Positions 29,231-35,844 of a stretch of DNA of 64,000 bases are shown here, one piece after another. A program made the translations under genes and the position numbers. The stretch covers positions 1-64,000 of the forward strand of contig CAOJOK010000004.1 in NCBI GenBank assembly GCA_948440265.1, read 5' to 3'. Under the pieces are notes generated by a model. It was not told the origin of the DNA. It did not search any database and saw nothing but the letters and a program-made list of their open reading frames with translations. Source of the stretch: an uncultured Clostridia bacterium. Lineage in GTDB: Bacteria > Bacillota > Clostridia > Christensenellales > Pumilibacteraceae. The first letter of the stretch is position 1; each line of letters begins with the position of its first letter.

Positions 29231-29449
29231 ATGAAAAAGGTATACCGACTCGAGGATTTGGACTGCGCGAACTGCGCGGCGAAGATGGAGCGCGCCGTGG
29301 CGAAAATCGACGGCGTGGACAGCGTGGCTATAAGTTTTATGGGACAGAGGCTGTCTATCGACGCGGACGAAGCGCGGTTTGACGACATAATAAAGGAAGT
29401 CGTCAAAGTTTGCAGAAAAGTCGAACCCGACTGCAAAATCATTTTATAG
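29231..29449 (+). CDS. Stand-alone heavy-metal-associated (HMA) domain protein
   Basis: 72 residues, one HMA ferredoxin-like domain: LEDLDCANCAAKMERAV with the CxxC metal pair, a core similar to the N-terminal domain of ZntA/CadA ATPases. The adjacent ATPase lacks this domain, so the small protein likely serves as its detached metal-binding domain or a zinc/cadmium chaperone. Start: AAGGAG about 9 nt before the ATG. It is followed by cadA after 23 bp. Confidence 0.88.
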   Translation: MKKVYRLEDLDCANCAAKMERAVAKIDGVDSVAISFMGQRLSIDADEARFDDIIKEVVKVCRKVEPDCKIIL

Positions 29450-29472
29450 TACATAACGGCGAGCGGACTGCA

Positions 29473-31419
29473 ATGAAAAAATTTCGATTGAGTAAAAGAG
29501 AAAAAAATAATTTAATCCGAATAATCGTCGCGCTTTGCGCTTTCGGCGTCATCTTTATTCTGGATAAAGTCCTTGTACTGGGCGATTTAATCGGCGGCAC
29601 ATTGGGGTGGCTTCTTCCCTTCTTTCTGTATCTTGCCGTATATCTCGTAATCGGGTATGACGTTTTGTGGCGCGCAATACGCAACATAGCGCACGGACAG
29701 ATTTTCGACGAGAACTTTTTGATGTGCGTCGCAACGCTCGGAGCTTTCGCGCTTGCCATTTACAGGGGCGTTACGGGGCAGGAAATCGAAGGATTCGACG
29801 AGGCCTGCGCCGTACTGCTGTTTTACCAAGTCGGAGAGTTTTTCCAAAGATATGCGACGGGCAAATCGAGAAAGTCTATTTCCGCGCTTATGGACATACG
29901 CCCCGACTATGCCAACGTAAAGCGCGAAAACACGACCGAGAAAGTCGACCCGTCCGAAGTGGAAATCGGCGACATAATAGTCGTGAATCCCGGCGAAAAG
30001 GTGCCGCTTGACGGCATTGTGATAAGCGGCGCAAGCGCGCTCGACACGAAAGCGCTCACGGGCGAATCTCTGCCGCGCGACATTTCGACTGACAGCGAAG
30101 TCATAAGCGGCTGCGTCAATCTTTCTTCCCAGATAGAAGTCAGAGTGACGAAAAAGTTTTACGACTCCACCGTTTCCAAAATTCTGGAGCTTGTGGAAAA
30201 CGCTTCCGAGCAGAAATCGAAAGCCGAAAACTTTATCACGAAATTTGCCAAATATTACACCCCTGCCGTGGTCATAATCGCCGTACTGCTTGCCGTCATA
30301 CCCGGCATTGTCACGTCGGACTGGTCGACTTGGGTATACCGCGCTTTGAGCTTTTTGGTCGTATCCTGCCCCTGCGCACTAGTTATATCCATACCGCTTT
30401 CCTTCTTTGCCGGTATCGGCGCGGCGTCGAAGTACGGCATACTCGTCAAAGGTTCCAACTATCTCGAAAAGTTTAATCGCGCCGATATATTCGTCTTCGA
30501 CAAAACGGGAACTTTGACAAAGGGCAACTTTGCCGTGACGAAAGTTTTCCCCGAAGATAAGAGAGAAGAAATTCTGTATCTTGCCGCCATTGCCGAAAAG
30601 GACTCCAACCACCCTATCGCAAGGTCAATCGTCGAATGTTACGGAAAAGAGACGGAAGGCGGCTTTACGCTTACGAACGTCGCAGGCTCGGGAATTATTG
30701 CCGCAAACGCAAACACAGCCATTTACTGCGGAAACGAAAAGCTGATGAAAGGCAACGGCATCGAGTTTATCAAAGCGGACGGTCTCGGCACGGTGGTATA
30801 TGTCGCCAAAGACAAAGAGTTTATCGGCTGGCTCTTAATCTCTGACGAAATCAAGCCCGAAACCAAAGACGTAATCGGAGAGCTGAACGATATGGGCTGT
30901 CAAACCGTTATGCTGACAGGCGACAACGAGCAAATCGCAAGCTCCGTCGCAGGCAGTATCGGTCTTACGGGTTATAAAGCTTCTCTCCTGCCGCAGGACA
31001 AAGTGGCGGAAGTGGAGAATATGATGTCGCAGAAAAAGCAGAAAGACGTGCTTTGTTTTGCAGGCGACGGCATTAACGACGCTCCCGTGCTTATGCGCTC
31101 CGACATCGGTATCGCTATGGGCGGCGTGGGCAGCGACGCGGCAATCGAAGCCAGCGATATCGTGCTTATGAAAGACGATTTGCGCGGAATACCGCTTGCA
31201 AAGCGCATTGCGAAAAAGACGATGGGAATCGTTATGCAGAACATTATATTCTCGCTTGCGGTGAAAGCGGCAATACTGATTCTCTCCGCATTCGGCATTG
31301 CCAATATGTGGATTGCGGTGTTCGGCGACGTCGGCGTTGCAGTGCTTGCGATACTCAACGCAATAAGAGTCAACTCAAGCTATGAGAAGAAGAAAAAGCG
31401 CAAAACGGATAAGGCATAA
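29473..31419 (+). CDS. cadA: Zn2+/Cd2+/Pb2+-exporting P1B-type ATPase
   Basis: 648 residues. Pumps divalent soft metals out of the cell at ATP cost. Seen: actuator TGES, the CPC metal motif in SCPCALVISIP, phosphorylation site DKTGTLTKG, the SNHPIARSI motif of the nucleotide domain, and GDGINDAPVL. A Lys in FSLAVKAAILIL and the DxG in FGDVGVAVL fit the P1B-2 (zinc/cadmium/lead) class. No N-terminal HMA domain is present; a separate HMA protein precedes it. Start: ATG at 29473; GAGCGGA upstream is weak, and the earlier open frame lies inside the HMA gene. Regulated, presumably, by the ArsR-type sensor. Terminator follows. Confidence 0.93.
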   Translation: MKKFRLSKREKNNLIRIIVALCAFGVIFILDKVLVLGDLIGGTLGWLLPFFLYLAVYLVIGYDVLWRAIRNIAHGQIFDENFLMCVATLGAFALAIYRGVTGQEIEGFDEACAVLLFYQVGEFFQRYATGKSRKSISALMDIRPDYANVKRENTTEKVDPSEVEIGDIIVVNPGEKVPLDGIVISGASALDTKALTGESLPRDISTDSEVISGCVNLSSQIEVRVTKKFYDSTVSKILELVENASEQKSKAENFITKFAKYYTPAVVIIAVLLAVIPGIVTSDWSTWVYRALSFLVVSCPCALVISIPLSFFAGIGAASKYGILVKGSNYLEKFNRADIFVFDKTGTLTKGNFAVTKVFPEDKREEILYLAAIAEKDSNHPIARSIVECYGKETEGGFTLTNVAGSGIIAANANTAIYCGNEKLMKGNGIEFIKADGLGTVVYVAKDKEFIGWLLISDEIKPETKDVIGELNDMGCQTVMLTGDNEQIASSVAGSIGLTGYKASLLPQDKVAEVENMMSQKKQKDVLCFAGDGINDAPVLMRSDIGIAMGGVGSDAAIEASDIVLMKDDLRGIPLAKRIAKKTMGIVMQNIIFSLAVKAAILILSAFGIANMWIAVFGDVGVAVLAILNAIRVNSSYEKKKKRKTDKA

Positions 31420-31512: not shown

Positions 31513-32037
31513 TTATTTCAACAGCACTTTTGCGCCTACGGAAACACCTGCAAGTATGGAAAGTATTCCGCCGACGATTGCGCCTGCGCCGAGCGTGTAA
31601 AGCTCTTTGAACGCGTCGGAAACTTTCTGCGCCGCGTCCCCCGTCAAGTCTCCGACGTGAACAACCATAAACTGTTCCGCACAGAAGAAGAATACGCCGG
31701 AAACGATGAACGCCGCGGCAGCCACTATCGGAGCGATTTTGCCGAGCTTACCCATAAGCGCAAGCACCGCAAACACTATTCCGACCAATGCCAAGATGTA
31801 TGTGAGCAGGTTCATAAACGAAAAATCGAGTTGAGTTACCGTCGCGCCCAAAACTTCCGTGGAATAACCGAACGTTATCTGCATACCGTTTAAGGGGTCG
31901 CCCTTTACCAAGCCCGTAGCGCTTTGATAGTTCAGCTGCGGAACGAACATCATAACGATTGCCGCAATGCCGAGCAATATCGCAATGCCTGCGACTATCG
32001 TGCCTACACTGATTTTTCCCGTCTTCTTTTTAGCCAT
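31513..32037 (-). CDS. Small four-TM membrane protein, unknown function
   Basis: 174 residues. Four hydrophobic segments (about 11-33, 70-90, 97-117, 145-168); a ~35-residue loop after the first contains no Cys. The basic N-terminus MAKKKTGKISV suggests the ends are inside. No family recognised. Start: ATG at 32037 with AAGGAG about 8 nt upstream (an earlier in-frame start at 32046 is too close to that site). Promoter at 32078-32107. Confidence 0.7.
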   Translation of the reverse strand: MAKKKTGKISVGTIVAGIAILLGIAAIVMMFVPQLNYQSATGLVKGDPLNGMQITFGYSTEVLGATVTQLDFSFMNLLTYILALVGIVFAVLALMGKLGKIAPIVAAAAFIVSGVFFFCAEQFMVVHVGDLTGDAAQKVSDAFKELYTLGAGAIVGGILSILAGVSVGAKVLLK

Positions 32038-32077
32038 TTTCAACACTCCTTATTTATAATATTTTTAGGATATATAT

Positions 32078-32174: not shown

Positions 32175-32798
32175 TCAGAGAGTTTTCAATATTTCGATAA
32201 GGTTTTTTTCATTCAGCTTTTCTCCCGAAAAGTCGGCGATTATCTTTCCTTCGTCCAAAATGACGGCTCTGTCCGCCACGGCGCAGGCTTCATACGGGCT
32301 GTGCGTCACAAACAGCACGTCGCCGCCCCTGTCCCTTTGCAGTCTCCCGAAAAGGTCTGTCATTCTCGTTTTCAGTCCTATATCCAAGCCGCGGAACGGC
32401 TCGTCCATCAAGAGCGTGCCGCCGCCGCGAACGAAAGCTCTCGCCAAAGAAACTCTGTCCGCCATACCGCCCGACAGCTCTTTCGGATAAAGATTCCCGT
32501 CCACGCCCACTTCTGCGAGCATACTCTCCGCCTGCTCTTTTCCCGCGCCGACGAGCAGCAGATTTTCCAGCACGGTCAGATTTTTGATAAGTCTCGGCTG
32601 CTGAAAAATATAGGAAACTTCGCCCGTAATTTTCACTTCGCCTTCGTAATCGACAAGACCTGCCGCGATGTTCAGCAGTGTGGTCTTACCGCAGCCGCTT
32701 CGTCCCAAAACCGCCGTAATGCCCTCGAAACGGGCGGAAAAGCCGTCGTAGACCGTTTTATCGCCGAAGCTTTTCTTCACGTCTTTAAACTCAATCAT
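32175..32798 (-). CDS. ABC importer ATP-binding subunit (SsuB/TauB-like)
   Basis: 207 residues, short for the family (usually ~240-260). Walker A GRSGCGKTT, signature ELSGG (~residue 112), Walker B TLLMDEPFRG and switch VTHSPYEA are all present, so it should hydrolyse ATP. The nitrate/sulfonate/taurine (SsuB/TauB) type is inferred from partners. Start: ATG at 32798 with GGAGGT about 5 nt upstream; it overlaps the permease stop as ATGA. Last gene of the operon TM1266 regulator - binding protein - permease - ATPase. Confidence 0.9.
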   Translation of the reverse strand: MIEFKDVKKSFGDKTVYDGFSARFEGITAVLGRSGCGKTTLLNIAAGLVDYEGEVKITGEVSYIFQQPRLIKNLTVLENLLLVGAGKEQAESMLAEVGVDGNLYPKELSGGMADRVSLARAFVRGGGTLLMDEPFRGLDIGLKTRMTDLFGRLQRDRGGDVLFVTHSPYEACAVADRAVILDEGKIIADFSGEKLNEKNLIEILKTL

Positions 32799-33571
32799 TG
32801 CCACCTCCGTGCAGGCAGAGCCGCCGCCCGAACCGCAACTTCCACGATAAAACAGACGGTCACGGCAAGCAGAGTTACGGCAAACAGCCGCGCCGTATCT
32901 ATATATATATTGGCAAGATTGAGCGTGCCGCCGAGGCTGTCCGCCGTCTGCGCAAGCGCTTCGCCGGCTATGACGAGCTTGACTCCGAACGAAAGATTGC
33001 CTGCCGAAAAGTCGGCTATCTGCGGCAGAGTCTGCGGCAGTACGAACTTTGTCAGCACCTTTTTTTTCGGCACTTTATACACCTTGCACATTTCGAAAAT
33101 GCCGTCGTCGAGCGAAGACAGCATTGCCGTCGTCTGCGAATATATAATCGGCATAAGCACCGTGAACGCGACTATGACGGGCGCGAAAATCGACCGAAAC
33201 CACAGCGTCAGCAGAAATATTACCGCCATAGTCGGCACCGAGCGGAGAAAAGTCATCAGCGGCGCGAGCGCCTTTTGCAGCAGTTTTAAGCGGCTTGCGG
33301 CAATGCCGAGCGCGCCGCCGACAACAAATGCCGCCGCGAACGCGCCGAGCGAGCGCAGTAAGGTGAACGCCAGCGACTTATAAAAGTCCGCGCTTTTCAG
33401 CAGTGCGCCCACGGCAAATACTATCTCGCTTATTTTGGGCATAACCAAGCTTTCGCCCACGACAGCCGCGGCGATTGCGTATACGGCAATCATTACCAAA
33501 ACCGTAACAAGCGGAAACAGCAAGTTTATAACTGCGCTTTTGACGAGTTTTTTGTCCGATTTATTTTTCAC
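32795..33571 (-). CDS. ABC importer permease (SsuC/TauC-like)
   Basis: 258 residues, about six membrane segments, with the BPD_transp_1 coupling motif as GEALAQTADSLGGTLNLA (EAA loop variant) near residue 210. It forms the membrane channel of the importer. Start: GTG at 33571 overlapping the binding-protein stop as GTGA, with no separate strong ribosome site, so translation is coupled. Substrate class is inferred from the SsuA/NMT1-like binding protein. Confidence 0.9.
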   Translation of the reverse strand: MKNKSDKKLVKSAVINLLFPLVTVLVMIAVYAIAAAVVGESLVMPKISEIVFAVGALLKSADFYKSLAFTLLRSLGAFAAAFVVGGALGIAASRLKLLQKALAPLMTFLRSVPTMAVIFLLTLWFRSIFAPVIVAFTVLMPIIYSQTTAMLSSLDDGIFEMCKVYKVPKKKVLTKFVLPQTLPQIADFSAGNLSFGVKLVIAGEALAQTADSLGGTLNLANIYIDTARLFAVTLLAVTVCFIVEVAVRAAALPARRWQ

Positions 33572-34614
33572 TTTGCTTCTTCGTGTATCTTATCGTAAAC
33601 CATAGAAGCGGCGGGCTCGGCAAGCAGTCCGAAGTCTATTTGACCGAGTTTCAGCGCCTGTATGATTGCGCCGCCGTCCGCATAATAGCGCAGAGCCACT
33701 TTTCCGTCGATTGCGGTATCGCTTCTTTCATAAGAAATTTCCTTGCGCTTCAAAATATATCTGAACACCAAGTCGGGGACCTGCCCTTCCCCTATGACGC
33801 CGACCGTCTTTCCGACAAAGGTCTGCGCGCCGTCCATATCGCCGCCGACGATATAGAGATTGCCGTGCGTCAATGTTGCAACGAGTTTATATCTGCCGTT
33901 CTTATTATAAAGTTTTGCCGCAAGGTTGGACGGTACGACGGCAATATCCGCTTCGCCCGTGGTGACCTTTTGCGCTATCTGATTGGACGGTACGACGGTG
34001 TATTTTACGTCGACGCCGTCAATCTTTTCCGAACTTGCCATAAGCGGCGAGAGCGCGAGAGCAGTCGCTCCGTCCGGCATAAAGACCTTGACGCTTACGG
34101 GTATTTCGCCGCCGTCGGCAGGCTGTGCGTAAAAATCTTCGTCCGGCAGCTTTCCGCCTATCAAGTCCTGCGACAGTTCTTTTTCCATATCGATAAACAA
34201 ATTCAAGTATGCTTCCGCCGCCGCCTTTGCTTCCATAGCCGGCACCGTCTTTATATGACATCTCTGCACGATTTCTTTCGTAACCGAAGTCACGGTGGAA
34301 GTCGTGCCCGACTGCATATTGTTCTTTATCGCTTCGACCGCCTGCGCCGTATTATTCTCCGCCCAGCCGTCTGCTTCTTTAAGCGCCGCCGCAAAGCTCT
34401 TGACGAATCCGCCCGACGTCTGCAGAAGTTCGCTTTTTGCCACAAGGCACGCCTGCGGATATTCCGCCGTACCCGTAACTTCCCGCCACAGCGTCTGCAC
34501 GTCCATTCTGTCGGTGACCAACGTGGGCGTGTAACAATCGCACGCGGCAAACGGCAGAATCGCCGTAAGCGCAAGGCACATAACTATCGTCGCTATCTTT
34601 CCCGTTCTTTTCAT
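33568..34614 (-). CDS. ABC substrate-binding lipoprotein, SsuA/NMT1-like, circularly permuted order
   Basis: 348 residues: signal peptide with lipobox-like FAAC (Cys25), then the binding protein. The order of parts is unusual. In SsuA/NMT1 proteins the chain opens with a 'V.IG..ps..pl..A' strand and ends with a 'YP..lv....f....p..v..fl.a' region. Here that ending (EYPQACLVAKSELL..., about residues 45-145) comes first. The usual opening (VSVKVFMPDGATALALSPL) starts only at residue 174, followed by TTGEADIAVVPSN and finally LKLGQIDFGLLAEPAASM at the C-terminus. This reads as a circular permutation. Start: AAGGAG about 8 nt before the ATG at 34614. Overlaps the permease gene as GTGA. The ligand is unknown. 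Confidence 0.85.
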   Translation of the reverse strand: MKRTGKIATIVMCLALTAILPFAACDCYTPTLVTDRMDVQTLWREVTGTAEYPQACLVAKSELLQTSGGFVKSFAAALKEADGWAENNTAQAVEAIKNNMQSGTTSTVTSVTKEIVQRCHIKTVPAMEAKAAAEAYLNLFIDMEKELSQDLIGGKLPDEDFYAQPADGGEIPVSVKVFMPDGATALALSPLMASSEKIDGVDVKYTVVPSNQIAQKVTTGEADIAVVPSNLAAKLYNKNGRYKLVATLTHGNLYIVGGDMDGAQTFVGKTVGVIGEGQVPDLVFRYILKRKEISYERSDTAIDGKVALRYYADGGAIIQALKLGQIDFGLLAEPAASMVYDKIHEEAK

Positions 34615-34627
34615 AAAATCAATCTCC

Positions 34628-34882
34628 TTATTTATCTGTTCTGGCAAACAGCGTTTTTGCGGATACTCCGTCGAGATTTCCGAGTTTGCCCGTCAGTGCA
34701 TTTATCCTGTCCGCAGGCGCGTCCATTACCACGGAAATCACATTTATTCCGCGCGCGGCAAGCGGCAGTCCCATTCTGCCGATTATGTACTCGCCGAACT
34801 CCGACAGCAGAGAGTTGAGCGTTTCCACCGCGGCTTTGTTCTCCACTATTATTCCGACTTGCGCCAATCTGTTTTCCGACAT
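34628..34882 (-). CDS. TM1266-family (iron-only hydrogenase system) putative regulator
   Basis: 84 residues, an ACT/NikR-C-like ferredoxin-fold domain: RLAQVGIIVENKAAVETLN, EYIIGRMGLPLAARGINVISVV, then APADRINALTGKLG. This matches the TM1266 family, named for its frequent link to [FeFe]-hydrogenase genes; its ligand and targets are not established. Start: ATG at 34882 with AAGGAGC about 8 nt upstream. First gene of the importer operon (gap 13 bp to the binding protein), behind a leader with a terminator. No hydrogenase gene is in this window, so here it may serve the transporter instead. Confidence 0.85.
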   Translation of the reverse strand: MSENRLAQVGIIVENKAAVETLNSLLSEFGEYIIGRMGLPLAARGINVISVVMDAPADRINALTGKLGNLDGVSAKTLFARTDK

Positions 34883-35089: not shown

Positions 35090-35638
35090 TTATACGGGAG
35101 CGAAATCGCAGAGTCTGCCGCGATAAATAATCTCGCCTTTTTTCATATTCAGAAACTCTACGGGACGGACCACTTCGCCGAACTCGTCTTTTTCCAAAAT
35201 GTCGAACTTGTCCAAGAGTTCTTTGATAAACTCCGAACAATAATAGCAGTTTGCCTTGCGGCGGTGAATACCCAATTTGGCAAGAAACAGTCCGAGATAG
35301 TTATAATGATATTTCTTCCTGTCCACATACATATTTTTTATGTACTCGTTTATCTCGGCATATTTATCCTTGCTCACAGTCAGACGGATAACCACGACTT
35401 CGCTGTTTTTAAACCGCTTCATAGAACCGAAATGCACGGACTCTTTCACAAATCCGCCGATAAAGGGGTTGCTGGGGAAAATTCTGCCGAAAGAATACAT
35501 CTCGTTCAAGTCGTCTTCCAGACTTATGGACGAATGGGCATACTTATCTCCCGTAACCTTTCTTATTATCTTGGAAACAATAGAATCGGTTGCGCTGACA
35601 ACTATGTAAATATGTTTTTTCTTTTCTTTCTTTTCCAC
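35090..35638 (-). CDS. Permuted papain-fold (YiiX/NlpC-P60-like) hydrolase
   Basis: 182 residues, no signal peptide. The likely catalytic His35 (KYAHSSISL) comes before the likely Cys134 (CYYCSEFIKEL), the order typical of permuted papain-like YiiX/YebB proteins. These act on amide or ester bonds; substrate unknown. The frame stays open to an ATG at 35749, but a consensus promoter (35705-35734) lies inside that extension. The GTG at 35638 with AAGGATAGG upstream is therefore the better start. Very Lys-rich N-terminus (EKKEKKKH). Confidence 0.75.
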   Translation of the reverse strand: MEKKEKKKHIYIVVSATDSIVSKIIRKVTGDKYAHSSISLEDDLNEMYSFGRIFPSNPFIGGFVKESVHFGSMKRFKNSEVVVIRLTVSKDKYAEINEYIKNMYVDRKKYHYNYLGLFLAKLGIHRRKANCYYCSEFIKELLDKFDILEKDEFGEVVRPVEFLNMKKGEIIYRGRLCDFAPV

Positions 35639-35704
35639 TTTCCTATCCTTAACGCCACCGAAATCGGGTCGCGACTCATATAAGAATTTAACCTCGTATT
35701 GTTT

Positions 35705-35734
35705 ATTATAAACGGCAAACCGCTCGTTTGTCAA
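35705..35734 (-). promoter_or_regulatory. Promoter of the permuted papain-like gene
   Basis: Minus strand TTGACA (35729-35734) and TATAAT (35705-35710), 18-bp spacer. Start near 35698, about 60 nt before the GTG at 35638. Confidence 0.8.
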
Positions 35735-35844
35735 ATAACTTATGGGCATATAACGGAAAAACAGACAAAAATTTCGTAAAAACGTATATTTTCCCCTCGT
35801 TTTCGCCTAATACCATTTATGCTTCGGCGGTTTGAATTATGCTC

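Follow-up and report, generated by a model that had tools for sequence, protein, structure and literature searches.

Most natural circular permutants on record are old and isolated cases, and their origins have thus been argued from distant relatives, with duplication or fission–fusion as the standard models (PMC3320104). Duplication and trimming explain the natural permutation of the DNA methyltransferases and of saposin and swaposin, which have other folds and form old classes (PMC3320104). The glucose-binding lipoprotein TpMglB-2 (Tp0684) of Treponema pallidum, a substrate-binding protein (SBP) of an ABC transporter, is a natural circular permutant that retains ligand binding despite the permutation (PMC4990184). 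OpuAC-type glycine-betaine-binding proteins, molybdate-binding proteins and CysB are grouped in one circular-permutation family, all with type II SBP-like folds (CPSARST, PMC2395249), though this relation is very distant, at less than 24% identity between different families and functions (PMC2395249). In the open-access library searched, no paper was found that describes the same orthologous SBP being permuted repeatedly; two hits on recurrent circular permutation of orthologues were incidental, their abstracts dealing with other topics.

The SBP gene analysed here lies in the window, a 64,000-nucleotide stretch of DNA from an uncultured Clostridia bacterium of the Pumilibacteraceae. By sequence its product belongs to the same family as the SsuA/NMT1-like ABC binding protein BDI_1369 of Parabacteroides distasonis (PDB 3hn0), which is also its best structural match but is unpermuted, with the canonical N-M-C segment order. 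The SBP is permuted like TpMglB-2, but the latter has a type I (cluster B) fold, a sugar ligand and a single reported permuted topology, and its permuted part shares only 13% identity with the unpermuted relative, without a series of independent permutations (PMC4990184). Unlike in the OpuAC family, the permutation here relates orthologues with about 77% identity in the same operon and, unlike in the methyltransferases and saposins, it represents recent switches between near relatives at one conserved locus. It is very probable that the window gene encodes a functional permuted SBP of an ABC importer and is one of many independent permutations.

Segment order and predicted fold of the window SBP

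The SBP gene is part of an operon-like array of a TM1266-like regulator, the SBP, a permease and an ATPase, with the cognate permease and ATPase genes directly 3′ of the SBP gene (Table 1). A Shine–Dalgarno-like AGGAG precedes the ATG of the SBP open reading frame (ORF), which encodes 348 amino acids and ends with a stop codon at 33568–33570; the TM1266-like gene probably starts with the ATG at 34882 (MSENRLAQ). The lipobox FAAC (residues 22–25) identifies the SBP as a lipoprotein, on sequence alone. The 1.86 Mb genome contains a single SBP copy. Neither riboswitches nor other Rfam elements that could hint at the ligand were found in the window, and a literature search for TM1266 together with hydrogenase returned nothing beyond a genome note. 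Two further ORFs on the minus strand flank the array: one whose product, a small predicted membrane protein, is matched by neither Pfam nor NCBIfam (31513–32046), between a P-type-ATPase-like ORF (29410–31419, plus strand) and the ABC ATPase gene, and a 219-amino-acid ORF without a Pfam match (35090–35749), 5′ of the TM1266-like gene.

Table 1. Coordinates of the SBP gene, its segments and the neighbouring operon genes in the window
Feature	Coordinates	Strand	Basis
TM1266-like regulator gene, 5′ of the SBP gene in the operon	34628..34882	−	PF21699 E=2e-29, TIGR03959 E=4.3e-30
Whole SBP lipoprotein gene, type A, order C-N-M	33568..34614	−	ORF, profile matches, AlphaFold2
Signal peptide, residues 1–24, before lipidated Cys25	34543..34614	−	Sequence
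Segment C, residues 31–163; C-terminal part in canonical relatives, here directly after the signal peptide	34126..34524	−	Single and doubled profile h170–302; SsuA profile 177–247
Linker QPADGGEIPV, residues 164–173, from old C-terminus to old N-terminus	34096..34125	−	Modelled with high confidence
Segment N, residues 174–258; opens the mature protein in canonical relatives	33841..34095	−	Profile match from h2; 3hn0 from residue 7
Segment M, residues 259–343; mid-protein in canonical relatives, C-terminal end here	33586..33840	−	Profile match to h171
ABC transporter permease gene, start overlaps the SBP stop codon	32795..33571	−	PF00528 E=9.1e-19
ABC transporter ATPase gene	32175..32804	−	PF00005 E=1.3e-21

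A canonical profile built from 29 unpermuted relatives matched the SBP in two pieces, with its positions 170–302 aligned to residues 31–163 (126 bits) and its positions 2–171 to residues 174–343 (209 bits). The same profile doubled in tandem gave one unbroken match across the junction (h170–475) with 347 bits, compared to the two separate scores. Each profile position was thus used once in a cyclically shifted manner, demonstrating the segment order C-N-M instead of the canonical N-M-C. Consistently, EYPQACLVAKSELL and ADGWAENNTAQAVEAI lie within residues 31–163, residue 173 opens the stretch VSVKVFMPDGA, and the C-terminus carries LKLGQIDFGLLAEPAASM. The structure 3hn0 also matched with its halves exchanged (whole-sequence E=1.6e-13), its residues 7–156 corresponding to residues 175–338 of the SBP (i-Evalue 6e-9) and its residues 231–280 to residues 110–163, the latter stretch being weak alone (i-Evalue 0.38). 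The evidence for the segment order is far beyond chance.

Because standard family searches match the SBP only in short parts, the protein might instead be read as an unpermuted, normal SBP core that received an unrelated domain behind the signal peptide and is truncated at the C-terminus. The PF09084 NMT1 profile aligned only its positions 19–120 to residues 199–296 (24.4 bits, above the cut-off of 20.5), and the TIGR01728 SsuA profile only its positions 177–247 to residues 45–116 (24.6 bits, against a cut-off of 163.5), so that the SBP falls outside the SsuA subfamily proper. However, the stretch that would be the inserted domain is the one matching the C-terminal part of the canonical profile, and with the doubled profile each position is accounted for a single time. 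This refutes the reading, which we rejected as having next to no chance of being correct. Standard domain annotation thus recognises such permuted proteins only in part.

AlphaFold2, run with natural relatives, modelled the window SBP with a mean pLDDT of 92.3 and a pTM of 0.86. The model predicts one complete two-lobed type II SBP (Venus-flytrap) fold with the full set of alpha/beta elements, rather than an ordinary SBP carrying an extra domain, and the 10-residue linker is predicted to be ordered (pLDDT about 96). The best match of the model in Foldseek, which depends on chain order, was 3hn0, with approximately half of the protein aligned (about 183 columns) and TM-scores of 0.36–0.45, as expected of a permutant in an order-keeping search. 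Judging from the model, both the fold and the ligand cleft are preserved, and the lipid anchor would no longer sit at the start of lobe 1 but at the former crossover from lobe 2 to lobe 1.

The initial annotation had proposed a circular permutation relative to SsuA/NMT1 proteins, with the usual protein end placed right after the signal peptide, the usual mature start near residue 174, the normal mid-protein segment at the C-terminus and the old termini joined near residues 150–174. The doubled profile, the swapped halves of 3hn0 and the AlphaFold2 model bear this out in each part, and a normal C-terminal segment elsewhere, which would have refuted it, was present neither as a second copy in the protein nor in the flanks or the genome. 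The SBP meets the family-profile criterion of SsuA/NMT1-like type II SBPs but not their canonical N-M-C order, and is a permuted variant rather than a canonical member. It also fulfils what is required of a natural circular permutant, namely segments present once each, a shifted order, a continuous tandem match that demonstrates the join and, in the model, a linker compatible with the fold.

Rotation types and their recurrence among orthologues

The initial annotation had also anticipated homologues of the same order adjoining TM1266 genes. These were found, including in G001 (63% identity), the one additional representative of the genus within the genome set searched, but the finding goes further than that annotation foresaw: permutation has recurred, and the orthologues use three different cut sites. 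The permuted protein alone as query recovered no relative in the related-locus search; a narrow alignment of segments N and M did.

We typed 140 loci, from the order and from named records, as 90 canonical, 34 type C, 10 type A, 4 type B and 2 incomplete. Some genomes were entered twice because they are present in two collections, and the loci were partly picked for a permuted look, so the shares of the types are not frequencies. Type A, that of the window SBP, is cut near profile position 171, type B near 86 and type C near 127, inside segment M. Within the family, most orthologues are canonical and the others are permuted at the site of the window SBP or at another; type C is present in Candidatus Coproplasma. 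The family, which includes Pumilibacter muris and Anaerocaecibacter muris, is the Pumilibacteraceae and belongs to the GTDB order Christensenellales. Outside this order, all 56 full-length orthologues are canonical (a 57th is fragmented across two contigs), suggesting that the canonical order is likely ancestral. One member of the order (G129) carries two full-length canonical SBP copies on different contigs (C16:140454–141368 and C36:83015–83980).

The synteny of the TM1266–SBP–permease–ATPase operon is demonstrably kept in all rotations, and the linkers of the permuted genes are mostly 10–14 residues long. The genes neighbouring the SBP gene are unpermuted. In a control with the other ORFs of the same loci, exchanged order was seen in only 2 of 17527 pairs, one of them antisense to the SBP and the other involving a long ORF, compared with 2552 of 9041 SBP pairs. 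In the match lists, the more distant NMT1-type paralogues of the same genomes were free of exchanged pieces.

By inspection of the window model, cut B falls in the loop after the strand at 253–257, cut C in the loop after the strand at 295–297 and cut A after the helix ending at 347. All three sites, each used repeatedly, are thus placed by the model at loops or lobe crossovers. A type C relative was modelled equally well (pLDDT 94.5, pTM 0.91). For the type C model (L113:2395–3324), OpuAC structures ranked at the top with whole-length alignments, at TM-scores below 0.5; as far as this model indicates, the type C rotation may share the OpuAC strand order.

An SBP tree of 83 rows, for which all proteins were first rotated into one common order, required 15 changes of rotation type (bootstrap range 14–16), of which at least 12, between the canonical order and a permuted one, are imposed by branches with good support. 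A quick tree of 122 rows likewise gave 15 rotation changes, and the permease tree gave 19. These counts cannot separate gain from reversal, and the permease tree differs in detail from that of the SBP; part of the changes may therefore stem from recombination or reversal and not from fresh permutations. The recurrence is nevertheless demonstrated: the same orthologous gene has been permuted many separate times within one bacterial order, with about 15 rotation changes.

That every cut site is common to several lineages, and that the SBP tree is not matched everywhere by the permease tree, would also fit a small number of ancient events, with a single permutation for each cut site, followed by horizontal transfer, with a recurrence that is only apparent. 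However, the rotated SBP sequences do not group by type. The AU test, with groups defined by segment order and not taken from the tree, rejected a single clade for both type A (p=1.5e-5) and type C (p=1.6e-14). Furthermore, permuted and canonical proteins are each other's nearest relatives, L113 and L115 standing with L096 and L106 (74–77% identity), L032 with L068, and L151–153 with L138 and L143. Ancient permutation with later transfer is thus quite improbable, and we favour repeated permutation. In close relatives with about 77% protein identity, the flanks are colinear and the sole difference is that the halves of the gene have changed places. Between L113 (type C) and L096 (canonical), DNA identity is 81% upstream and 72% downstream, and the gene halves are 78% identical in exchanged order; such halves between colinear flanks also occur in L032/L068 (type A), L037/L041 (type B) and L151/L138 (type A).

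Selection, proposed route of permutation and lipid anchoring

The value of dN/dS was 0.08–0.18 within permuted pairs, similar to that of canonical pairs, and 0.39 in one mixed pair (L151/L143). Although these values are rough because several pairs have nearly saturated dS, they demonstrate purifying selection, and the permuted proteins thus look functional, with ligand, expression and transport undetermined. All permuted genomes that can be named are MAGs, and no permuted isolate genome was identified, as might be expected if the order were an artefact of assembly or binning or the mark of a decaying pseudogene. This is scarcely conceivable given that G001 and many independent MAG projects share the order, that the junctions are in frame and the flanking genes colinear, and that the lipobox is retained in nearly all permuted relatives according to a simple pattern match. 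Both readings were rejected on the profile, colinear-flank, model and dN/dS evidence.

We propose the following scenario for the origin of the permuted genes. The mature coding region was likely duplicated in tandem and in frame within the gene while the signal peptide was kept; superfluous 5′ sequence immediately following the signal peptide would then have been lost and the 3′ end truncated, and this duplication and trimming would have been repeated across the order. The signal peptide stays first in every rotation while the remainder rotates, and in-gene tandem duplication with trimming is thus inferred as the simplest account. No duplicated or half-trimmed intermediate was present among the 140 typed loci, and no leftover segments were found in 1679 translations of the flanks of permuted genes; the duplication route was thus not directly seen and stays an inference. 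A search of the window operon for direct or inverted repeats that could drive a rearrangement yielded only short and weak ones, none of which bracket the segments. Natural circular permutants are held to arise by two standard routes, one of which is fission of the protein into two genes and their fusion in swapped order (PMC3320104). This route is very unlikely here, as none of the full-length typed loci showed a split pair and a swapped-order fusion alone would not leave the signal peptide first.

Ligand binding by the permuted SBP, and any effect of the permutation on its anchoring, are inferred; a similar anchoring idea was raised by the authors of the TpMglB-2 study (PMC4990184). It is possible, though doubtful, that a mutational or selective bias keeps rotating the SBP through the three loop cut sites, perhaps also back, and that the position of the anchor relative to the lobes and the permease is an evolving trait. 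As one orthologous gene in a fixed operon has changed its rotation about a dozen times or more, in some cases between relatives at about 77% protein identity with colinear flanks, the duplication, fission–fusion and cut-and-paste routes become testable by comparing sister genomes. The locus provides an unusually good natural record of protein rewiring with the fold kept, and its natural sets of viable cut sites could be used for engineering SBP biosensors.

In the genus of Pumilibacter muris (g8), type B and canonical loci (L036–L042) are interleaved in the SBP and permease trees alike, suggesting that repeated gains or reversals there may be recent.
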